From: an archaeon HR01
Lineage (GTDB): Archaea > Thermoproteota > Nitrososphaeria_A > Caldarchaeales > Caldarchaeaceae
Direction: 5' to 3'
Assembly: GCA_002898355.1 (NCBI GenBank)
Contig: BEHD01000001.1
Span: 62,001 to 126,000 of the forward strand
DNA length: 64,000 nucleotides
Shown in pieces: positions 1 to 11,302 of the stretch. Positions within the stretch are counted from its first letter, which is position 1. Every line of letters begins with the position of its first letter. The notes under the pieces were generated by a model. It searched no databases and was not told the DNA's origin. It saw nothing but the letters and a program-made list of their open reading frames with translations. The position numbers were made by a program, and so were the translations under genes.

Positions 1-1575
1 GAGGCTGGGACCCAGCTCAACAGGTTCCTGTTGGACCTTTACGAGATTGCTGGGAAGCTCGGGGTTCCGATAAGGGATGGTGGTGAGGCCCTCAGGGCCA
101 CCTCCGAGATTATGCGGGATGTGATTGAGAGCGCCAGACTTCTGGGCGGTGACTTCGAGATGCTCCAGAGCCGGCTTGCGGGAGTGGATGTCAGGGCTGT
201 CAGAGCCCTCTTCACCCTCACCCATCTGGGTGAGGCGATGGATGAGCTGCAGGCGGAGATCTCGAGGGCGGGCACCACCTGGGAGGCATACCAGAGCGTG
301 TTGGCCACGACGGAGGGTAGGTCGGCCGCCCTGAGGGCTGAGGTGGATAGGCTGCAGAGGTCTCTGGGCGAGTCGGCGGCTGCAATATACAACATGGTGG
401 CGCCGGCCATACTCAAGGCCTTCGACGCAGTTGTTTCTGGGTGGAGAACCCTCTTGGGCGCCGTAACAGGGAGCAACTTCGACAGGATGCTTGGCTATCT
501 CGAGAACGAGCTACGGGTCTTCGGCCGTATAACCGAGGAGCAGGCCAGCCAGATGATCAGGTCGTGGGTTGAGATGGGTGAGATTACGGTCTCCGAGGGG
601 TTGAAGATGGCTGAGGCTTTAGGGCTTTACGACGCCAGCATCCAGCAGCTTATTGAGACCGCCATAGAGGCCGGTATGGAGGTTCCTACGAGTTTCTCGG
701 CGATGGCTCAGGCGGTCTCAGATTCCACGGTGCAGTCCTCCCAGAGCCTGCGGGAGCTCACATATGCGATATCTCAGGCGGAGGAGGCGATGAGGAGCCT
801 CTCCACCGCATCCCAGGTCCTCCAGATATCCCTCGACTACTACGACGTCATCTCAACGGTCAACCAGGCCCTCGGCGTAAACACCGTTCTCACAGAGGAG
901 CAGGTGAGGAGTCAGCAGTACCTCTCCGCAACCCAGAGCGTCCTCAACTACCTGACACAGGTGTTCAGCCTCGAGCAGCAGGCCCTGCAGCTCTACATGA
1001 TGGGGGCCAGCGAGGCCGGAGGCATACTCATCAACACGCTTGCAGGTGTTCAGCAGGCCCTGGCTGACGGCGTTGTCTCCCAGCAGGAGTTTACGGCCCT
1101 CCTCTCCACGTTGGGCGTGGACGCGGGAAACGTCGCAGGCTCCCTCCACAACGTCCTGGTGAAAGCGCTTGAGGTGACCCGGCAGGCGGTGGAGAAGAAT
1201 AGCGAGAGTGTCTCCGGGTTGATAGCACAGCTCAACGCCCTCAACGGGATGGTGGTGACCTATAGGGTTGTGGAGATACGTGAAACCGTAACCCAGCCCT
1301 CTGGGGAGAGCGAGCCCGGCTACCAGGGGAGGCCTTATCAGCGTGGCGCATGGAACATACCGTCCACAACCCACGCCATCCTACATCCCGGCGAGATGGT
1401 GTTGCCGAGGCCTGTGGCGGAGTGGTTCAGGAGACACGGCGGCGGAGCCCTGCAGGGAAGGCCTGTAACCGTCAACGTGAACGTGAATGTTTCGGGGGGT
1501 AGCTCTGAGGTTAACTGGGGGAGGGTTGCGGAGATAGTCAGCCGTAGGATTAACCGCAACCTGTCGGTGATGTAG
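1..1575 (+). CDS. Tail tape-measure protein of a head-tailed provirus, C-terminal part
   Basis: The reading frame is open from the first base of the window, so the N-terminus lies outside; an in-frame TTG at 31 is not a convincing start. About 524 residues are visible. Most of it is long, Gln/Ser/Ala-rich helical sequence without Cys, as in tape-measure proteins, which set tail length and line the tail tube. Near the end (about residues 450-475 of the visible part) there is an Asn-Ile-Pro-Ser...Ile-Leu-His-Pro-Gly-Glu-Met-Val segment followed by a Gly-rich stretch, the usual C-terminal signature of tape-measure and tail-associated proteins. The stop directly abuts the next ATG. The identity rests on that motif, the composition and the order of neighbours, not on sequence search. 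Confidence 0.72.
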   Translation, partial: EAGTQLNRFLLDLYEIAGKLGVPIRDGGEALRATSEIMRDVIESARLLGGDFEMLQSRLAGVDVRAVRALFTLTHLGEAMDELQAEISRAGTTWEAYQSVLATTEGRSAALRAEVDRLQRSLGESAAAIYNMVAPAILKAFDAVVSGWRTLLGAVTGSNFDRMLGYLENELRVFGRITEEQASQMIRSWVEMGEITVSEGLKMAEALGLYDASIQQLIETAIEAGMEVPTSFSAMAQAVSDSTVQSSQSLRELTYAISQAEEAMRSLSTASQVLQISLDYYDVISTVNQALGVNTVLTEEQVRSQQYLSATQSVLNYLTQVFSLEQQALQLYMMGASEAGGILINTLAGVQQALADGVVSQQEFTALLSTLGVDAGNVAGSLHNVLVKALEVTRQAVEKNSESVSGLIAQLNALNGMVVTYRVVEIRETVTQPSGESEPGYQGRPYQRGAWNIPSTTHAILHPGEMVLPRPVAEWFRRHGGGALQGRPVTVNVNVNVSGGSSEVNWGRVAEIVSRRINRNLSVM

Positions 1576-3471
1576 ATGTCTGCCGTCTTTGAGGTCTGGG
1601 ATACTGGGACAGGGTCTTGGCTGGATAAGACCGGCCGGCTGACAGCCTTCCGACGGCGTATAGCCTCGAGGCAGATGGAGCTGGTGGAGGGTGAGATGGT
1701 GGATGACGAGCTTAGGGTGGGCGACAGTGTTAGGCTGAGGGAGGGCGGTGTTACCGCTTTTGAGGGTGTGGTGTATGAGGTGGATAGACAGCGTGGGAGC
1801 GGTGATGTGAAGCGTTGCAGCTTCACAGCCTACACCGACTTGATGAGGTATGATACCTACGTGGTTTTCAAGACATATGCAGCAGGCACTTCTGCAGGCG
1901 CCATCATCCGTGACCTCGCATCCCTTGAGACGGGTGTGGATGTGGCGGACGTGGATGACGGCCCCTCCCTCGCACAGGATTGGGAGATTGAGGGGGTTAA
2001 GGCCCTTGAGGTTATGCAGGATGTCGCCAGGGGTGTGAACTATTGGCTGTGGATGAGGCCGGGGAGGAAGCTATATTTCAAGCCGAAGACGGTTGGGGTC
2101 AGCAGAGGGACTATAAGCGACGCTATCGCTGTCGAGGCAGAGTATAGCGAGGACAGGTGGAGATATCGCAACAGGGTTATCGTTGTTGGCTCTAACGGGC
2201 AGGTATTGGCTGATGTTAGCGAGCCTCCGGGCGACCTGCCTGAAACCATCCACAACCCCTTCCTCTCAGATGTTAACGAGGCCAATAGAATCGCCCAGAC
2301 CCAGCTCTCGATATACAGGGAGTATGGAAGGAGCCTCACTGTTACGTTGCATAGAAAGGACTATGAAGCCCTAGCCCCCAATCTCGGTGACACATTCACG
2401 ATCAACCTACCCAGCCTAGGCCTCAACAACATGGATATGGTCCTGCTGGAGATAGAGTATGAGTTTGGCTCCCGTAGTTGGTGGAGGCGTTTAACCTTCG
2501 GAGGCCATAAAGAGCTTCTGGAAGACTACTTGGCTAGGAGGTTCGGCGGCGAAGAGGCTACCAGGTTCGGGCCCGGGCCTGATATCTCCCGAAGCATATC
2601 CGTTATCTACACGACGATAGACAGCGTGAATACAGCTATCAAGATTCAGGCAAGGGCTAAGACGGTCAGGTATGTCAACAGGCCTCCCATGAACATCGTG
2701 AATGGGGTAAATGTGAAGCTGGCGGCTGACGGCGGGGTTGAGCTTGCGTCGGGCTATACATCTGGAGGCTTCACGGTTGAATTCACCCCACAGAGCAAGA
2801 TTTTCCGAAGATGGTCTAGAGCCCACTACACGGCTGAGCTTAAAGATGGCTCGGTTCAGGTGGATTTGCAGCGCTCCGATGGAAGCGTTATAGCCAACAA
2901 CATCCCACAGGACTATGACATCCCCTACCTACCCGCTGTGGCCGGGATCTTCACCGAGCAGAACGCGTCGGAGTGGGGTGTGGTTGGCGGTGTCCTTAGC
3001 GATAGCGAGATGGCCGTCATATCGTTCTGGTCAATTCGAGGAGATAAAAGTGCCGGAGCAACTAGCATGGAGCTATCCTATCCTAAAGACAAGTCCGCAG
3101 GATGGGATTTAGGGCCCTACAGATACATGAGGCTTTATCTCTTCTCCTATGTTGATGACCCAGCCCTCAAGGTTAGGCTGCATACGGATGCCTCAAACTA
3201 CTATGAGGCCGCATTAAACCACCTAGGCGGGGCATGGCGGGGATATGAGATAGTCATAGACACCATGACGGAGGTGGGGACGCCGAATAGAAATAGCGTC
3301 AACTGGTTCAGTATCATAACGACGGCCCCCACACTATTTGTTGATACCGACTGGGTTTTCCAACCTCTCAAGAGAGAGAAGTTGGTGATGAAGTTCAACC
3401 TTTCACGGCCTACCCCCTCCAGTCTCAGCCCTATAGTTAAGCTGGCGAAGATGGTTTGGCGGGAGGGGTGA
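1576..3471 (+). CDS. Provirus tail hub / baseplate-type protein
   Basis: The 631-residue product follows the tape measure without a gap, where siphoviruses and myoviruses encode the tail hub. Residues about 35-110 look like the small beta-barrel with alternating charged strands seen in gp27/gpD-like hub proteins (Val-Gly-Asp-Ser-Val-Arg-Leu-Arg, then Gly-Val-Val-Tyr-Glu-Val), and residues about 120-300 fit the remainder of such a hub. The C-terminal half is different: beta-rich, with Tyr, Trp and Ser, resembling a carbohydrate-binding or adhesin extension. Inferred role: tail tip structure joined to receptor contact. The exact family is not recognised. No signal peptide or membrane segment is present. 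Confidence 0.62.
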   Translation: MSAVFEVWDTGTGSWLDKTGRLTAFRRRIASRQMELVEGEMVDDELRVGDSVRLREGGVTAFEGVVYEVDRQRGSGDVKRCSFTAYTDLMRYDTYVVFKTYAAGTSAGAIIRDLASLETGVDVADVDDGPSLAQDWEIEGVKALEVMQDVARGVNYWLWMRPGRKLYFKPKTVGVSRGTISDAIAVEAEYSEDRWRYRNRVIVVGSNGQVLADVSEPPGDLPETIHNPFLSDVNEANRIAQTQLSIYREYGRSLTVTLHRKDYEALAPNLGDTFTINLPSLGLNNMDMVLLEIEYEFGSRSWWRRLTFGGHKELLEDYLARRFGGEEATRFGPGPDISRSISVIYTTIDSVNTAIKIQARAKTVRYVNRPPMNIVNGVNVKLAADGGVELASGYTSGGFTVEFTPQSKIFRRWSRAHYTAELKDGSVQVDLQRSDGSVIANNIPQDYDIPYLPAVAGIFTEQNASEWGVVGGVLSDSEMAVISFWSIRGDKSAGATSMELSYPKDKSAGWDLGPYRYMRLYLFSYVDDPALKVRLHTDASNYYEAALNHLGGAWRGYEIVIDTMTEVGTPNRNSVNWFSIITTAPTLFVDTDWVFQPLKREKLVMKFNLSRPTPSSLSPIVKLAKMVWREG

Positions 3472-3474
3472 TAA

Positions 3475-5091
3475 ATGAGCCAGATAGTGTATACCGAGCT
3501 GGAGGCTTTTCCGCTTCGGTGGCCGTATCTTCAGCTTGAGCCGCTAGACATAGAGACCGTGAAGACATGGCCAAGCGACCAAGCCTTCAACGTGGATACA
3601 GCATCGTCCACATACACACCTGCCAACATAGGTTCACCCATAGAGATTCCTGTATATGGAGATGTGAAGCTGGTTCAAGTTATCAGAAAAGCAGCTACCG
3701 CCCAATACGAGCTATGGACAAACCTTGAGGTTTATGCGAGAAAGGTAGGGAACCCGGGGCCTCTGAAGGTTGAGGCATATACGGCTGAGCAATCTCCAAC
3801 GGACTGGGTTAACGATGAAATAAGGGAGCCAGACGGCTCATTTTTTAATACTACCACAGTTTTTAACAAGTGGCGTGCGGTAACGAGAAATATACCGGAG
3901 CCTCTCATGATTAAGTCGGTCAATTTTCTAACCACTTCGTATGTGGCTATGGATTTCCTAATCAGGACAGCGCAATCTGACGGCCGCCCCAGCTCAACAA
4001 CAGTTTACGGCCCAGTATCCATAACATCCAGCACATGGAGCGCCTTATCACCCCCCGCCGAATTATCTCCGGGTATGTATTCATTCATCGGCTATACAAG
4101 CAATTCCACATATTTGGTAAAGGGCACGCCCGGCGCCACCTTCGGGTCTATTCACAGCTATTGGTATTCAACTAATAGCGGGGCTACATGGTCGCAGGAG
4201 ACAGCAAACGCTTATCCAGCTGTAATGTTGGGCTGTTCTACCAGAGCCTATAAACCCGTGCAGAAGCATGATGAATACGTTGTGCCAGCCGATGTTTTCG
4301 GAACAACGGCCGCCTACACATCAATATACCATGCTAATGACTCAAGCCGATTCGCCCAAAAAGACCCGGTAATGTGTATAGTTTTTTCTTCTCCAACATC
4401 ACCCGACACGAGCAACTGCTACATGATACAGCGTGGCAGCCATACAGGAGCTATAACGGGGCCGGTGGGTGCTAACTTATTTGACTATGCTAGGGAACAC
4501 AGCATCGGCTCAGATTACCTATACGATGACGTTCTCGTAAGAAAGACTTACAGCCAATACGCAGAGGTCTCCCATGTCTTCGACAAAACATACTACCTCG
4601 GACCCGGAAGCTACTCCCCCAAAACATCCATCACCATGAAGGCCTCCACCGGCACGGTTTACGCCCTACCCGTCGTCGTGAAATCGGCCGCATCCGTTCA
4701 ACCCGCCGCCGAGAAATCCACAGCATCCACAACCTATACAACCATAGGATGGGATGTCTCAGGCTCCACACCCGAAATAATCTCCCCAGCCGTAGGGCCC
4801 GTAAAGTTTCTGGTTAGGGGGGCCGGTGCATATAATCAGGTAACCTACTATCCACGTCTCTACTATAACAAAAACCCGGTAACCCCGAGGGACTTCGGCT
4901 TCACAGAGCTATATCTAATGAAGATTAGAGCCGACACGGCGGACACCCTAGCACGCATAAACGATAAAACAAACATCTATCTCGCATCATCAGGAGACGC
5001 AGTAGCCATAGACCCCAACTTCAGAGCGCCCATCTCAAAGATACATGTCGTAAAAGGCAGAGTGACATGCGACCTTCTCGGGGTGATATAG
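3475..5091 (+). CDS. Probable provirus tail fibre / receptor-binding protein
   Basis: This 538-residue protein starts at an ATG preceded by a GGGAGGGG ribosome site and follows the tail hub by 3 bases. It is rich in Ser, Thr, Tyr and Pro with short beta-strand-like stretches and no Walker, protease or membrane motif. Position (after hub, before a chaperone-tipped fibre) and composition suggest an exposed tail adhesin. Its codon use is more AT-rich than that of the tape-measure and terminase genes, consistent with a fast-changing host-range gene. No family is recognised, so the role is positional inference. Confidence 0.5.
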   Translation: MSQIVYTELEAFPLRWPYLQLEPLDIETVKTWPSDQAFNVDTASSTYTPANIGSPIEIPVYGDVKLVQVIRKAATAQYELWTNLEVYARKVGNPGPLKVEAYTAEQSPTDWVNDEIREPDGSFFNTTTVFNKWRAVTRNIPEPLMIKSVNFLTTSYVAMDFLIRTAQSDGRPSSTTVYGPVSITSSTWSALSPPAELSPGMYSFIGYTSNSTYLVKGTPGATFGSIHSYWYSTNSGATWSQETANAYPAVMLGCSTRAYKPVQKHDEYVVPADVFGTTAAYTSIYHANDSSRFAQKDPVMCIVFSSPTSPDTSNCYMIQRGSHTGAITGPVGANLFDYAREHSIGSDYLYDDVLVRKTYSQYAEVSHVFDKTYYLGPGSYSPKTSITMKASTGTVYALPVVVKSAASVQPAAEKSTASTTYTTIGWDVSGSTPEIISPAVGPVKFLVRGAGAYNQVTYYPRLYYNKNPVTPRDFGFTELYLMKIRADTADTLARINDKTNIYLASSGDAVAIDPNFRAPISKIHVVKGRVTCDLLGVI

Positions 5092-5092
5092 T

Positions 5093-5671
5093 GTGAGCTG
5101 GTGGATAGACGGCGAGACAGGGTTACCGGAGACGGCGGCTGAGAAGGTTAAGGCGAGAATCAGCCTGCTTGAGCGGGAGAACAGCCTCCTCAGAGGGATG
5201 ATATCGTTGTTGGAGGAGGAGAACCAGCTGCTGCGGGATAGGATTAACATGATTGAGGGCGGCGGCCTCGGCGTGAGGAAGGCGGGGGATAGGATAGAGT
5301 TCATCCCATCGGATACGGCCACAGCCCAGCTAACCTCCGACGGATATCTAAAGCCTGTATCACCCAACACCTTAGCGGTAGGAGACCCAGACAACTACCT
5401 GAACGACATAATAACAGCGAATATTACCATAGCCTCCACAGCCGGAGACAAGGAAGATGTGAGGGACATCCCGGATGACGAGCTTGAGGTGGAGCTTCCA
5501 AAACCGAAGAGATACATCCGTAAAGGAGGGAGGAGAGAGGAGGAGATAGGGTATGTGGCTGAGGAGCTTCCACCAATACTGAGAAGGGGTAAAGGCTACG
5601 ACCTCAAAACCCTCGTCGCGGTCCTCGCCTACAAGATAGGGAGGCTGGAGAAAAGAGTCTCAAAGGTATAA
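5093..5671 (+). CDS. Short tail fibre with C-terminal S74-like intramolecular chaperone
   Basis: The 192-residue product starts at GTG directly behind the previous stop. Residues about 17-55 form a heptad coiled coil rich in Leu and Glu, suited to trimerisation. The last 80 residues resemble the intramolecular chaperone (peptidase S74) found at the ends of phage tail spikes: a Ser-Thr-Ala-Gly-Asp-Lys-Glu-Asp stretch in place of the usual Ser-Asp...Lys cleavage region, then a Pro-Lys-Arg-Tyr-Ile-Arg-Lys strand, Glu-Ile-Gly-Tyr-Val-Ala-Glu-Glu-Leu-Pro, and a closing helix Lys-Thr-Leu-Val-Ala-Val-Leu-Ala-Tyr-Lys-Ile. Such domains fold the trimer and then cut themselves off. The domain is short, so self-cleavage is uncertain. 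Alternative: a plain trimeric assembly tip. Confidence 0.55.
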   Translation: MSWWIDGETGLPETAAEKVKARISLLERENSLLRGMISLLEEENQLLRDRINMIEGGGLGVRKAGDRIEFIPSDTATAQLTSDGYLKPVSPNTLAVGDPDNYLNDIITANITIASTAGDKEDVRDIPDDELEVELPKPKRYIRKGGRREEEIGYVAEELPPILRRGKGYDLKTLVAVLAYKIGRLEKRVSKV

Positions 5672-5694
5672 CCGCCACATCAAGGCGATATCCT

Positions 5695-5901
5695 ATGAGC
5701 TGGCTGCTTAGAACGTCTAGGAAGCCGAAGGAGCGGGAGATGGGTGAGACCGTTCTGGCCATGAGCTGCACAGTTAAGGCGTTGGGGGATGACCTACTGG
5801 TGGAGGGGAGGGCTAGAACGAGGAGGGATGGGGAGAGGCTGAAGCGTGTGCTGGTGGAGATGCTGGATGAGACCCTAGGGGGAGGAGATGAGGCCCAGTA
5901 G
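5695..5901 (+). CDS. Small hypothetical provirus protein upstream of terminase
   Basis: A 68-residue, strongly charged protein with no Cys and no membrane segment. It begins at ATG 23 bases after the fibre gene and overlaps the terminase start by 14 bases, so the two are probably translated together. Position would suit a small terminase subunit or a packaging accessory, but it is shorter than typical small subunits and shows no helix-turn-helix I can recognise. Function unknown. Confidence 0.5.
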   Translation: MSWLLRTSRKPKEREMGETVLAMSCTVKALGDDLLVEGRARTRRDGERLKRVLVEMLDETLGGGDEAQ

Positions 5902-7192
5902 GCTGGCCCAGCTCCTCCTCGACGCATCAGGCGCCGGCGTAAAACTGTACGGCTGGCAGGCCAGATTCCTAGACGACGGCTCAAGGTTCCGTGCAGTCCT
6001 CAAATCCCGGGGGGTGGGAGCCAGCTACACCGTAGCCCTCGAGGCCGTGGTGGACAGCCTACTTTCGGAGGGCCATACCATCCTCCTTGTAAGCTATTCC
6101 CAGCGGCAGAGCCTAGAACTCTTCAAGAAGGTCAGGGATCACATATCCATGCTGAGCCGTCTAAAACTGAGACACGGCAACACAGCCTACAGCCTCAGCC
6201 ACAAAACCACCAAGACATCAGCCGAATTCTCCAACAACAGCAGGATTATAGCCCTCCCCAACAACCCCGACTCGTTGAGAGGTTTCAGAGCCGACCACGT
6301 ATACTTGGATGAGGCGGGGATGTTCAGGGACGACTTCAGCCTCAAATCCGCCCTAGCCTTCACCACAGTTGCGAGGGATGGCAGACTCACCCTAGTCTCC
6401 ACACCGAAGGGCTGTAGGGGGTGGTTCTACGAGGTGTGGAGCAGGGAGGAGGGATGGTCCAAACACATGGTCCACTACAGGGACGCACCCCACATAACCG
6501 AGAAAGAGCTGAACGAGCTGAGGAAGGTGATGACAAGCCTTGAATGGGAGCAGGAGATGGAGATGAAGTTCCTGAGGGAGCAGGAAGCCCTATTCCCCTA
6601 CGAGCAGATACTCCGATGCGTAGAGGATTACCAGCCCTCAAAGCCGGCCGACGGAGCCACCACATACCTGGGCATAGACTTCGGCCGCTACAGGGACTCA
6701 ACCGTGATAACAGGCCTATCCAGGGAGCCGGACGGAAGGCTTAGAATATGCTTCCTCAAGGAGTTGAGGCAGATGGACTTCGCCGGACAGGTGAAGGTTA
6801 TCGAGGATGTGGTGAGGCTTCTCAGGCCTGCAGTGGTGGCTGTGGATAAGACCGGCCTGGGCATACCCATCGCCGAATCCCTGGCCAGGACCACACCCAT
6901 GCTAAAGCCTGTCACCATAACATCATCCATCAAAGACTCTATGGTGAGAGCGCTGAAGAACCTGGTGGAGTCGGGGGGTCTGGCCATACCGGCGGACGCG
7001 GTGGAGCTCATCAACCAGCTACATCTTTTCCAGAGGAGGCAGACTGCGGCCGGGGGTGTCAGATACGAGGCGCCGGAAGGCGGCCACGACGACTACGTAA
7101 TCTCCCTCGCCCTGGCTGTCCACGGAGCCCTCACCCACCAGCGGGAGAGGATGGAGATGGTGAGCTTCTGGAGATGGGGGGCTAACGCTTGA
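5888..7192 (+). CDS. Terminase large subunit (DNA packaging ATPase-nuclease)
   Basis: The 434-residue protein has the two domains of viral large terminases. The ATPase part shows a Walker A-like Ser-Arg-Gly-Val-Gly-Ala-Ser at residues 40-46, a Walker B with Asp141-Glu142 after Val-Tyr-Leu, and a coupling Ser-Thr-Pro-Lys at 171-174. The RNase H-like nuclease part has Asp264 in Leu-Gly-Ile-Asp-Phe-Gly, Asp320 in Val-Ala-Val-Asp-Lys-Thr-Gly and Asp401-Asp402 in Gly-His-Asp-Asp-Tyr, the expected acidic metal ligands. It drives ATP-dependent DNA packaging into the procapsid and cuts concatemers. A GGAGG site sits just before its ATG. It lies downstream of the fibre genes, unlike the usual order. 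Confidence 0.88.
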   Translation: MRPSRLAQLLLDASGAGVKLYGWQARFLDDGSRFRAVLKSRGVGASYTVALEAVVDSLLSEGHTILLVSYSQRQSLELFKKVRDHISMLSRLKLRHGNTAYSLSHKTTKTSAEFSNNSRIIALPNNPDSLRGFRADHVYLDEAGMFRDDFSLKSALAFTTVARDGRLTLVSTPKGCRGWFYEVWSREEGWSKHMVHYRDAPHITEKELNELRKVMTSLEWEQEMEMKFLREQEALFPYEQILRCVEDYQPSKPADGATTYLGIDFGRYRDSTVITGLSREPDGRLRICFLKELRQMDFAGQVKVIEDVVRLLRPAVVAVDKTGLGIPIAESLARTTPMLKPVTITSSIKDSMVRALKNLVESGGLAIPADAVELINQLHLFQRRQTAAGGVRYEAPEGGHDDYVISLALAVHGALTHQRERMEMVSFWRWGANA

Positions 7193-7530: not shown

Positions 7531-8376
7531 TTGGAGAGGAGGAGGCTGGGTAGAAAAGGTGAGGAGATACCGGTTATCGGCCTTGGGACATGGGGTATCG
7601 GCGGATACTCTACGGCTGACCACTCATCTGACGGTAGGGCTGTGGAAGCCATCAGATATGCTGTGGAGCTGGGGATGACCCACATAGATACTGCAGAGAT
7701 CTATGGGGCGGGCCATTCGGAGGAGCTGGTGGGCCAAGCTATCCGTGTCTTTGATAGGGACAGCCTCTTCATAGCCACCAAGGTCTGGAACACACACCTC
7801 AGATATGACGACGTCATCAGGTCTTGCAGGCGGAGCCTTGAAAGGCTGGGCCTCAGATATGTCGACCTCTACATGGTCCACTGGCCCAACCCACGCATAC
7901 CCCTCTCGGAGACGATGAGGGCTATGGAGAAGCTCGTGAAGGATGGGCTGACACGCTACATAGGTGTCAGCAACTTTGACGCACGCCTTCTGGGGGAGGC
8001 CATGCAGGCTCTCAAGAGTGAGGAGATAGTCTCCAACCAGGTGGAGTACAGCCTCTCCAGCAGATATGTGGAGAGGGAGCTGATCCCCTTCTGCGAGCGT
8101 AACGGCGTCACGGTGGTGGCCTACACACCTCTGGGCAGGGGGAGGATAGTGGATGAGGCCCACAGGGGAACGGTGAGGGGCAGGGTATTGGCCGAGATAG
8201 CCGGGAGATACGGTAGGACACCTGCCCAGATAGCCCTCAACTGGGTGGTGTGGAGGGAGGGGGTGGTCACCATCCCGAAGGCGGCCAGTAGGCGGCATCT
8301 GGAGGAGAACGCAGGCGCCGCTGGGTGGAGGCTCTCTCTGGAGGACTACCGGAGGCTATCCGACGCCTGGTCATGA
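7531..8376 (+). CDS. Aldo/keto reductase
   Basis: The 281-residue product matches the NAD(P)H-dependent aldo/keto reductase barrel: N-terminal Leu-Gly-Arg...Ile-Gly-Leu-Gly-Thr-Trp, the Asp-Thr-Ala-Glu-Ile-Tyr-Gly segment carrying catalytic Asp and Tyr (about residues 52-58), Lys in Ile-Ala-Thr-Lys-Val-Trp, His in Met-Val-His-Trp-Pro, and a C-terminal Ile-Pro-Lys-Ala nucleotide-binding loop. It reduces an aldehyde or ketone; the substrate is not predictable. TTG at 7531 gives the family's normal N-terminus. The gene's last 70 bases occur again, with a 24-base in-frame deletion, at 10382, on the far side of the ATPase/TOPRIM island. Confidence 0.9.
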   Translation: MERRRLGRKGEEIPVIGLGTWGIGGYSTADHSSDGRAVEAIRYAVELGMTHIDTAEIYGAGHSEELVGQAIRVFDRDSLFIATKVWNTHLRYDDVIRSCRRSLERLGLRYVDLYMVHWPNPRIPLSETMRAMEKLVKDGLTRYIGVSNFDARLLGEAMQALKSEEIVSNQVEYSLSSRYVERELIPFCERNGVTVVAYTPLGRGRIVDEAHRGTVRGRVLAEIAGRYGRTPAQIALNWVVWREGVVTIPKAASRRHLEENAGAAGWRLSLEDYRRLSDAWS

Positions 8377-8407
8377 GCAAGGCCTCCGCCATCTATTAGC
8401 ACACCTT
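8306..8407 (+). repeat. Left copy of duplicated gene junction flanking the ATPase/TOPRIM island
   Basis: Bases 8306-8378 are the 3' end and stop of the aldo/keto reductase gene. Bases 8379-8407 then match, with about five mismatches, the 3' end of the ABC permease gene that now sits 2 kb away (AAGGCCTC ... AGCACACCT). The pair of segments recurs in the same orientation at 10382-10472. The most direct reading is that the reductase and permease genes were once convergent neighbours and that the junction was duplicated when the intervening island arrived. Confidence 0.75.
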
Positions 8408-8464
8408 CAACATATCGCTTGAATCTACCCACCGCCGCATTCCCCTTTACATCAAAAGACAAAC

Positions 8465-9010
8465 CTAATTTCCTGAAAAGCGATGCAAGGCATCATAGAA
8501 TTTCCTGAAACTCTGTGATTTACTCAACAGTGTACCAATGTCGAGTCTATCGGCGAAGCCGGGTAAGTGACTTTTTTCATATCCATGGTTCCGTTTCAAA
8601 AATTCGAGAGGTTTAGCTTCATTGAGGCACATGTTTGCTACTATCCATTCTTCGATGCAGGGATTGCATGCAACTGCAATTAATTCTATCTGTAGGTTGT
8701 CTTTAGAAAGTTCTCTCGTAAGTTTCTGCTGAATTTCCTGTTCTGCGTTGTTTTCTCCATCTGAGTCAAAAACAACTATAAACTTACGGTAATTCTCTGC
8801 GGCTGCTTTGATTATGCGGGGTGCGTGATAGAGTATTCGGCCTCTGCCTCTAGCTGACTTCACCTTGACCTTGATACAGTTACTTATCTTCTTACACAGG
8901 TTTTGAAAAAATAACTTACCGTATTGGTCTTCACAGATTATGTAAATCGGTTTCACTGAAGCTGGTAAAGCCACATCTCGCTGGGCGTCAGCTTCTTCTC
9001 CCTCATCCAC
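8465..9010 (-). CDS. TOPRIM-like nuclease partner of an AAA ATPase (RloB/AbiL-type candidate)
   Basis: The 181-residue product carries the acidic signature of a TOPRIM-type fold: Glu27 in Ile-Ile-Cys-Glu-Asp after a hydrophobic strand, and Asp82/Asp84 in Val-Val-Phe-Asp-Ser-Asp-Gly. A later Asn116-Pro-Cys-Ile-Glu-Glu-Trp matches the Asn-Pro-Cys-Phe-Glu-Leu-Trp motif of RloB-like proteins. Such proteins are coupled to RloA/OLD-like ATPases in phage defence (RloAB, AbiL, PARIS, OLD). The ATG at 9010 is chosen because GGAGGAG stands 8 bases upstream; this makes a 58-base overlap with the ATPase gene. A GTG at 8974 is the alternative. Nuclease action is inferred, not shown. Confidence 0.68.
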   Translation of the reverse strand: MDEGEEADAQRDVALPASVKPIYIICEDQYGKLFFQNLCKKISNCIKVKVKSARGRGRILYHAPRIIKAAAENYRKFIVVFDSDGENNAEQEIQQKLTRELSKDNLQIELIAVACNPCIEEWIVANMCLNEAKPLEFLKRNHGYEKSHLPGFADRLDIGTLLSKSQSFRKFYDALHRFSGN

Positions 9011-10260
9011 CTCTGTATCTCCTCCAAGTTCTCAACCCGTCTCACCTTATTCCCTTCGGATGTTCTCTCCAGCAGCTGCAGACACTCAAGCCCAGCAACG
9101 TCCACCACTATCGGTGAGTGAGTTGCAACGATGGAGGTGATGTTTGCGTTTTTCAACTCTTCTACGATGTATTCGAGTATTTCACTGTGAAGAGAGTTCT
9201 CCAACTCATCAATCAATAGTATTGATGGCTTGCTCTCGACAGCCGTCAAAACATGTAGAAGTTTGTAGAATCCATCGGGGATGGATGGTGGGTCGAGTCT
9301 AGCACCGTACATACCATCCTGTATCGACAGGAAAACCCTCCCATCCACAGTTATGTCCGGCCTTAGAGTGAAATAGGGGAAAAGATTCTGTAGAGCTCTT
9401 TCGATTCTATCCGGTAACCGGCCGCCGCCCTGTAAAAACCATCTATGTAGTATCGCAGCCAAGTTTTCACCACGTTCAGATATAACATCCCCGTTTTTAT
9501 GAGTCTGAGGCTGCCTGATACCGACCAAATCAGGATGTTTAATCAACAAAGAACTCGCGAAAAATTTTTTCAAGTTGTATAAGGTATAGGTAACTAGGGG
9601 CTCATCTAGCGATGTTAAGTTCGGGGACAGTAGCTTAACCTCTCTCACCAAAAATTCGAAATCAGGTATATTTCTGAACAAAAAAAGGGAAAGCAGTACA
9701 ACCTGACTTTCTTCATATTTTTTGAAAAGACCAAATCCAATTTTTACTTGAAGCAAACTTATTAACTCAACATTAAATTTAACTTTAATGCTTATTCCAT
9801 TTTCTTTTAGTAAGCTTAAATGTTTTTCGAAGAAGTGTTCATCATATTCAATCGTCAGCACATTTCCTTCTATGGATAAAGATACCACGTTTTTTAGGTC
9901 TATTCTCTCTTTCGCTAATGTAACCATGCCGCCGGCACCTGTGAAGACAGCCTCGTATGTTGCAACGTGTTCTTCTGGGAGTTGGAATTCGAGCTCGAAT
10001 CTTATCGGTTTTGTTTCGTCGTTCCCGTAGACTATGTTTCTGTAGGTCCACCACTCTAGATGAGGTAGGTATGGTGACTCTGTCTGGACTAGTGCTTTCT
10101 TGAGGAATTTGAACGCCTCGAGCAGGCTTGTCTTGCCTGATGAGTTGGGGCCCACCAAGACGTTGAGGCCGTCGTATAGCTCCAGTTTGCAGTCCTTGAA
10201 GCCCTTCCAGTTTTGTATCCTGACCGACTTCAGTCGTAGTCTTTCTTCTTCTTTGGACAT
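8953..10260 (-). CDS. AAA ATPase of the OLD/RloA (SMC-like) group, defence candidate
   Basis: The 435-residue protein starts with a Rad50/SMC-like N-lobe (Arg-Ile-Gln-Asn-Trp-Lys-Gly-Phe) and a Walker A at residues 37-44 (Gly-Pro-Asn-Ser-Ser-Gly-Lys-Thr). The C-terminal lobe has Walker B Ile-Leu-Leu-Ile-Asp351-Glu352, Leu-Glu-Asn-Ser-Leu-His as D-loop, and the switch His381 in Ala-Thr-His-Ser-Pro. There is no fused nuclease; the TOPRIM part is the next gene, overlapping it. The middle 200 residues are AT-rich in codon use and lack recognised motifs. Family knowledge: such ATPases sense phage components and control a partner nuclease. It is probably transcribed from a TTAAAT box at about 10287-10294, with a short inverted repeat between box and start. 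Confidence 0.8.
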   Translation of the reverse strand: MSKEEERLRLKSVRIQNWKGFKDCKLELYDGLNVLVGPNSSGKTSLLEAFKFLKKALVQTESPYLPHLEWWTYRNIVYGNDETKPIRFELEFQLPEEHVATYEAVFTGAGGMVTLAKERIDLKNVVSLSIEGNVLTIEYDEHFFEKHLSLLKENGISIKVKFNVELISLLQVKIGFGLFKKYEESQVVLLSLFLFRNIPDFEFLVREVKLLSPNLTSLDEPLVTYTLYNLKKFFASSLLIKHPDLVGIRQPQTHKNGDVISERGENLAAILHRWFLQGGGRLPDRIERALQNLFPYFTLRPDITVDGRVFLSIQDGMYGARLDPPSIPDGFYKLLHVLTAVESKPSILLIDELENSLHSEILEYIVEELKNANITSIVATHSPIVVDVAGLECLQLLERTSEGNKVRRVENLEEIQRWMREKKLTPSEMWLYQLQ

Positions 10261-10275
10261 GTAACCATCAGTTAC
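10261..10275. promoter_or_regulatory. Inverted repeat directly before the ATPase start codon
   Basis: GTAAC-CATCA-GTTAC is a perfect 5-base inverted repeat touching the ATG of the ATPase gene and lying between it and an AT-rich box at 10287-10294 (read on the minus strand). The position, over the expected transcription start, suits an operator. Short arms mean chance is possible. Confidence 0.35.
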
Positions 10276-10381
10276 ATTCTTGGCAGGGATTTAAGAGTTT
10301 TAATCCGATATGGTGCTGGATGATTCCTGCTTATATAAGGCTTCACAATACCGGAGGTACGGCGGCCTATCGCCATAAACT

Positions 10382-10472
10382 AGAACGCAGGCTCTGCTGG
10401 GTGGAGGCTATCCGACGCCTGGTCATGAGCTAGCCCCTTCTAAGGCCTCTGTCAGCTATCAGCACACCTATC
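10382..10472 (+). repeat. Right copy of duplicated gene junction flanking the island
   Basis: Bases 10382-10430 repeat the reductase 3' end, ending in the same Ser-Asp-Ala-Trp-Ser-stop, but with eight codons missing between two GGAGGCT repeats present in the left copy. Bases 10431-10472 are the genuine 3' end of the permease gene, matching the remnant at 8379-8407. The fragment has no start and is not expressed as a reductase. Together with the left copy it delimits about 1.98 kb of inserted DNA. Confidence 0.75.
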
Positions 10473-11302
10473 GCCGTGAAGGCCGCTGCGAAGACGGCCA
10501 CCGCGCCCAAGTCTAGGAGGAGCTTTGAAGGGTCTGCGGCCGGCCCGTAGAGGAGCGACTGTCTAACGGCGTCCACGGCGTAGCTTATAGGGTTCACCGA
10601 TGCGATGGACTGGAGCCAGGAGGGCATCATCCTGATGGGGTATAATGCGTTGCTGGCGAACATGAGGGGGAGGTTTAGGAGGTTCATCACGGCCATCTGG
10701 CTCTCCCAGCTCTTCAGCCTCACGCCCAGCGATACGAAGAGGGATGAAAGCCCTAGGGAGAGTAGGAAGAGGGAGGCTAGGGCTGCGGGGAGTGAGATGG
10801 GGCTGGACAGGGAGTATCTGGCGCCGAAGGCTATGGAGATGGCCATAACCATCAGGGCCTGCACCACAGACCTAATCACCGAGGAGAGGACCTTCGAGAA
10901 TATTATGGTGCCCCTCTTGATGGGGGCGGCTAGGAGCTTGTTGAGGAAGCCCAGCCTCCTATCCCATGCGACGGACATCCCTGTGGACATGGATGTGAAG
11001 AGAACCACTATGGAGAGCATGCCCACCGACATGTAGGTGAAGTAGTCCAGTCCGGAGGCACCTAGGAGGCTGGCCATTATACTGTTGAAGGCCTCACCCA
11101 GCTGGGAGGTGATGTATGGTGGAAGCTGTGCGAGTACGTCGTCGGAGATGTTGAGGATGGCTGTAAGGTTGAAGGCTTTACCGAACAACCCCATCCATAT
11201 TACTGGCTGGACCATCGTCATAAAGAGTAGGAAGGGGGACCTAACCCATTTCCTCAGCTCCCGGCCCACCAGTGCCTGCAGCTCCATCAGAAGGTTCATC
11301 AT
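10430..11302 (-). CDS. ABC-2 type exporter permease
   Basis: The 290-residue protein has the ABC-2 membrane domain: an amphipathic N-terminus (Val-Gly-Arg-Glu-Leu-Arg-Lys-Trp), a first span at about 25-45, an extracellular region with Leu/Gln/Pro, and five further spans through about 285, with the central Pro-Ile-Lys-Arg-Gly cytoplasmic loop typical of DrrB-like permeases. Its ATG overlaps the stop of the ATPase gene by 4 bases, and it closes a PadR-ATPase-permease operon, the usual layout of drug or lipid exporters. The substrate is unknown. Confidence 0.85.
   Translation of the reverse strand: MMNLLMELQALVGRELRKWVRSPFLLFMTMVQPVIWMGLFGKAFNLTAILNISDDVLAQLPPYITSQLGEAFNSIMASLLGASGLDYFTYMSVGMLSIVVLFTSMSTGMSVAWDRRLGFLNKLLAAPIKRGTIIFSKVLSSVIRSVVQALMVMAISIAFGARYSLSSPISLPAALASLFLLSLGLSSLFVSLGVRLKSWESQMAVMNLLNLPLMFASNALYPIRMMPSWLQSIASVNPISYAVDAVRQSLLYGPAADPSKLLLDLGAVAVFAAAFTAIGVLIADRGLRRG

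Follow-up and report, generated by a model that had tools for sequence, protein, structure and literature searches.

The present study suggests that a small island in the genome of an uncultured hot-spring archaeon is probably an antiviral-type cassette that occupies the junction of two convergent core genes and has spread between genera by recombination through the ends of those genes, and that the direct repeat around it is the scar of its original insertion. The window analysed is the whole 64,000-nucleotide stretch in which the island lies (G000:C1:62001-126000), taken from a 1.76-Mb metagenome-assembled genome of the Caldarchaeaceae that is 93% complete. The same gene pair is present in G005 (contig CALHAG010000001.1), a congener of G002, which we take to be Candidatus Caldarchaeum subterraneum. 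Both carrier genomes, G000 and G005, were handled as draft metagenome assemblies.

Results

A two-gene island between copies of a gene junction

The island, about 1.98 kb in length, is flanked by the host genes for an aldo/keto reductase (AKR) and an ABC-2 permease (Table 1). Orthologues of the AKR are found at the corresponding position in G002, G005 and G006, and those of the permease in G002, G005 and G007. Profile matches bear out the names that the original prediction, made from the letters alone, had given to these genes and to an AAA_21/AAA_15 ATPase and an RloB-family TOPRIM-like protein, which are, as had been stated, the only genes of the island; no integrase or transposase was found within its ~1.98 kb. 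For the RloB gene the most likely start is a GTG that overlaps the stop codon of the ATPase gene, in preference to 9010, where a longer open reading frame (8465-9010) begins, and the two genes would be translated as a coupled operon, as in AbiL or RloAB. The GC content of the island is 0.43, as against 0.59 for the AKR and 0.58 for the permease, in keeping with the foreign origin that had been proposed for it. An AT-rich sequence in the right-hand spacer, ATTTAAGAGTTTTAAT, is common to the window and G005.

Table 1. Features of the island and its flanks in the window (positions count from the first letter of the window).
Feature	Position	Strand	Evidence
Aldo/keto reductase (AKR), host gene, left flank, intact	7531..8376	+	PF00248, 2.3e-70
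Left junction copy: native AKR tail (8306-8376) and degenerate permease-tail copy (8379-8406)	8306..8406	.	
Window counterpart of the tract taken up by G005, bounded by the inferred crossovers	8344..10561	.	maximum chi-square
RloB-family TOPRIM-like protein, 163 aa	8465..8956	-	PF13707, 8.9e-8
AAA_21/AAA_15 (OLD/ABC-type) ATPase, 435 aa	8953..10260	-	PF13304, 9.7e-24
Right island spacer and upstream region of the gene pair	10261..10381	.	alignment
Right AKR-tail copy with a 24-nt deletion between GGAGGCT repeats; missing in G005	10382..10428	.	
ABC-2 permease, host gene, right flank, intact	10430..11302	-	PF01061, 4.9e-33

The tails of both flanking genes are duplicated on either side of the pair, as had been claimed. 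The direct repeat comprises AGAACGCAGG...GGT (8306-8336 and 10382-10412, 90%), GGAGGCTATCCGACGCCTGGTCATGAGC (8351-8378 and 10403-10430, exact) and a block of permease tail (8379-8406 and 10442-10469, 86%). Its local alignment score is 79, whereas 1,000 shuffles gave no more than 29 and ~1,500 places picked at random in the window no more than 25, and the expected number of chance matches to the exact 28-mer is 0, which together exclude a chance origin. The native halves are the AKR tail on the left and the permease 3′ end on the right, and it is the copied halves that have decayed. Specifically, the right-hand AKR tail has indeed lost the eight codons that the original prediction reported, and the left-hand permease tail, for which about five mismatches had been counted, does carry 4-5 substitutions but also a deletion of 11 nt (TAGCCCCTTCT) that had been overlooked. 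When 12 relatives were searched for further junction copies, only those of G000 and G005 emerged, plus the permease orthologue of G007.

In the window the ends of the repeat coincide with those of the island, so that the layout is exactly junction, island and junction, with both flanking genes intact. Two routes could have led to this arrangement. The first is integration of the Campbell type, in which a circle carrying the junction and the pair would have entered the window lineage, and perhaps G005 also, by a single crossover in the junction; this is possible but doubtful, as searches of viral contigs, plasmids and, for RloB only, phages for relatives of the pair or the junction yielded none on a circle, a plasmid or a virus. 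The second, which we likewise put forward only tentatively, is capture of the DNA at a staggered double-strand break, where fill-in of ends of ~110 nt would have duplicated the junction. Break capture accounts for the coincidence of repeat and island ends as well as for a duplication that far exceeds the target duplications of transposases, and patch-type break repair with duplications around insertions is a subject of papers on eukaryotes. However, it leaves no direct signature and makes the same prediction as the Campbell route, namely repeat ends at the island ends, so the data fit both. To our knowledge, there is little documentation of end joining for these archaea, which counts against break capture.

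Occupied and empty forms of the site

Among the relatives, G002 has the predicted empty site, in which the AKR directly faces the permease and the two genes abut with overlapping stop codons, so the relatives do not all carry the pair at a site without a repeat. G005 has the same gene pair between the same flanking genes and with the same left breakpoint as the window, immediately after CACACC; these two are the only carriers among 44 genomes of the order. In G007 a DUF3800 gene follows directly on the permease 3′ end (L074 13-657, G007:C138) and represents a different cargo at the same junction, the contig ending before the AKR would appear. The same flanking core genes occur with the pair in G000 and G005 and without an insert in G002, the DUF3800 gene of G007 lying at the permease end, and the tight convergent AKR/permease junction would serve as a tolerated insertion site in the Caldarchaeaceae. 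The G006 contig stops at the end of the AKR. The start of that contig (G006:C327, L078 1-20) ends a few bases from the variable point of the AKR tail, as would happen if the population were heterogeneous at the junction.

Transfer of the island into G005

Over the bodies of the AKR and the permease and in the next gene, G005 and G002 share ~93% nucleotide identity, whereas the window is ~65-70% identical to either of them in the same backbone. At the permease end, in contrast, G005 is 38-45% identical to G002 and 81-91% identical to the window. In G005 the AKR is of window type over its final ~35 nt (16 of 16 informative sites, against 17 of 253 outside) and the permease over its final ~130 nt (61 of 67, against 11 of 222 outside), with breakpoints located by maximum chi-square at window positions 8343-8349 and 10559-10564 (0 of 2000 permutations each). 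Between the window and G005, dS is 0.11 for RloB, 0.25 for the ATPase C-terminus, 0.64 for the N-terminal part of the ATPase and 0.35 for the permease tail, compared with 1.41 for the AKR and 1.59 for the permease of the backbone; G005 and G002 differ by 0.25-0.26 in that backbone. The window-type tails on both flanking genes and the low dS of the island indicate that it entered G005 by recombination through these genes. Recombination at this junction had been proposed, and the 3′ ends of the AKR and the permease in G005, both chimaeric, show that these flanking core genes underwent homologous exchange.

The alternative of vertical inheritance from an ancestor of the family, with loss in G002, would explain why the same site is occupied in two genera. 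It is nevertheless ruled out, for all practical purposes, by an island dS of 0.11-0.25 against 1.4-1.6 in the backbone and by the chimaeric gene ends of G005. The higher divergence of the ATPase N-terminus and the permease tail relative to RloB shows that the island's two halves, left and right, differ in age, and therefore that at least two exchanges took place. As to direction, the permease tail of window type is similar to the one in another family (ADRGLRRG in G030), and the tails of G002 and G007 resemble each other, from which we infer that a donor of window type gave the island to the G005 lineage. Identical runs between the window and the recipient-type flanks reach only 8-11 nt near the breakpoints, which is short for classical homologous recombination; thus, either a closer or intermediate donor outside the sample, or homeologous or microhomology-aided joining, is needed.

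At its left edge, the island of G005 keeps an undeleted 40-nt copy of the permease tail followed by the island start of the window (CACACC, then.T.AACATATCGCTTGAAT), and this left junction copy is 97% identical over 66 nt to the right junction of the window (10403-10468), G005's own permease end being less close. The duplication in the window-type lineage therefore predates the transfer, and the insertion is, as the divergence of the repeats had suggested, not brand-new. On the right side of G005 no recognisable copy of the AKR tail was found; it was either lost with an older right half or never there.

The two edges of G005 also bear on how the island integrated. A native AKR body that passes into a junction of window type is what a crossover inside the junction should give, but on the right a Campbell event should have left G005's own AKR tail and permease end, and the permease end there is of window type with no AKR tail. 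The Campbell-type integration that had been suggested is thus not the best reading for G005, where the window-type tails on both sides point to exchange through both flanking genes, and holds its place as one of two possible origins of the insertion in the window lineage. A further model, site-specific integration at the AKR 3′ end, with an integrase supplied in trans or since lost, would turn the repeats into attL and attR. Integrases that act at gene ends replace the 3′ end of the gene by an element-type end, and the AKR 3′ end of G005 has been replaced in this way. However, the island is without an integrase, the permease end was replaced as well, the two-sided repeat exists in the window only, and there is no right-hand AKR-tail copy in G005 or between the permease and the DUF3800 gene of G007. 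We therefore set aside an integrase-mediated element at the gene 3′ end as unlikely.

The gene pair

The pair is probably a defence cassette in which a sensor-type AAA ATPase is combined with an RloB/TOPRIM-like effector. The ATPase has the motifs GPNSSGKT and ILLIDE, and this Walker-motif protein is encoded beside the RloB gene, with PF13304 and PF13707 both matched above cut-off. RloB was found in 17 of 398 genomes of the phylum, 15 of them other than the two carriers; the ED, DxD and E motifs are kept in the 13 relatives that were aligned, and an ATPase-sized reading frame adjoins RloB on the same strand in 13 of 13 relatives examined. The ATPase is conserved at both ends and highly divergent in between (aa ~101-260; dN 0.39, versus 0.005 for the C-terminus), as might be expected of a sensing region. 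The predicted model of RloB is an alpha/beta structure (pLDDT 80.7); a fold search with it gave no match at E<=0.001, and an OLD C-terminal structure appeared only at rank 44. The predicted model of the ATPase has a pLDDT of 34.5. In a separate observation, G003 has a solitary ATPase, ~43-59% identical to that of the island and wedged between two other genes (L111 4669-5814, G003:C19), beside which no RloB partner was found.

RloB has been tied to AbiLii and AAA-RloB pairs to AbiL, and OLD-TOPRIM effectors are paired with AAA antitoxins (PMC10440598). With PADLOC, AbiLii is the top match for the island RloB, and AbiLi is outranked by several other ATPase models. Like AbiL (AbiLi ATPase and AbiLii RloB) and RloA/RloB, the island has an ATPase gene followed by RloB in a coupled operon; it differs in its distant sequence (AbiLii model, E 6.2e-6) and in being a chromosomal archaeal cassette known from its genes alone. 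PARIS (AriA/AriB) similarly divides ATPase and TOPRIM nuclease between two genes, and the AriA model matches the ATPase (1.5e-24), but the partner gene matches RloB and not AriB, and PARIS was rejected. MADS was rejected also: MAD3 and MAD4 match the two genes weakly, far below the equivalog cut-offs (64 versus 420 and 31 versus 160 bits), and the two-gene island has no other MADS genes. Another reading, that the pair is a housekeeping OLD-type nuclease like Cran1 of the Sulfolobales (PMC12796447) and not a defence system, draws on the possible cell-cycle roles of archaeal OLD ATPases. It appears improbable for a pair that is sporadic, AT-rich and horizontally moved, whose ATPase middle is divergent and whose ATPase and TOPRIM-like parts are split over two genes.

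A neighbouring tailed-virus cluster

Positions 1-7192 of the window take in the last part of a tailed-virus head/tail cluster (G000:C1:55221-69192; L153 13221-18569) that encodes a prohead protease, an HK97-type capsid, a head-tail adaptor, a tail tube, tail proteins and a terminase large subunit. The cluster is syntenic beside the AKR in G000, G002 and G005, its divergence keeping step with taxonomy, and in G006 terminase, capsid and AKR are on one contig. Its capsid is 72-75% identical across the family, and dN/dS values of 0.09-0.16 for the cluster denote purifying selection. Prophage regions have been reported in the order (PMC10547907), and the cluster is a candidate for a gene transfer agent or a long-kept provirus. 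Within it, a 538-aa reading frame (3475-5091), with no counterpart at that position in G002 or G005, is possibly a variable receptor-binding or tail gene. Terminase matches occur in G001, G003, G004, G023, G033 and G034, with one in-frame stop in several relatives, which suggests that in some lineages this cluster of viral type may be undergoing decay.

Discussion

Collectively, these analyses point to a model in which the island was first inserted in a lineage of window type, an event that would have left the ~110-bp junction repeat as its scar. The duplication, by whichever route it may have formed, would have been in place before the transfer to G005 and would have decayed afterward by small deletions and substitutions. 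The cassette would then move from genus to genus as the homologous or homeologous recombination of the host acts on the ends of the flanking genes.

An integrase-less cassette at a hotspot flanked by core genes is of a kind already known. At integrase-less hotspots, exchange takes place through double recombination in the core genes on either side (Oliveira 2017, PMC5635113), core defence hotspots have been described in Pseudomonas aeruginosa (PMC10250203), and haloarchaeal homeocassettes undergo flank-mediated exchange without integrases (PMC11078007). Like these, the island is an accessory cassette between fixed core genes that has no mobility gene, with variation in presence and cargo and recombination in the flanks. 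It differs from them in that the exchange is between genera, over a backbone nearly saturated at synonymous sites, with crossovers that can be placed within ~10 nt, in that the first insertion is recorded in a fossil duplication of the junction, and in belonging to an uncultured order.

A more speculative possibility, to which we give little credence, is that the cassette is self-addressed: recombination between its two junction copies would excise it as a circle, which the host would re-insert at the same junction elsewhere, with particles of the neighbouring cluster, if like those of a gene transfer agent, as a possible carrier. If this were true, the island would be a mobile defence cassette that needs no recombinase of its own. 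Independently, if the cluster acts as a gene transfer agent, it could be a vehicle for transfer of the island.

Exchange of defence cassettes through flanking core genes is usually a statistical inference made within a species, whereas here two crossovers are located to near-base resolution. Moreover, the scar of the first insertion persists in two states of decay, which makes the order of events readable: insertion with duplication, then transfer, then decay.
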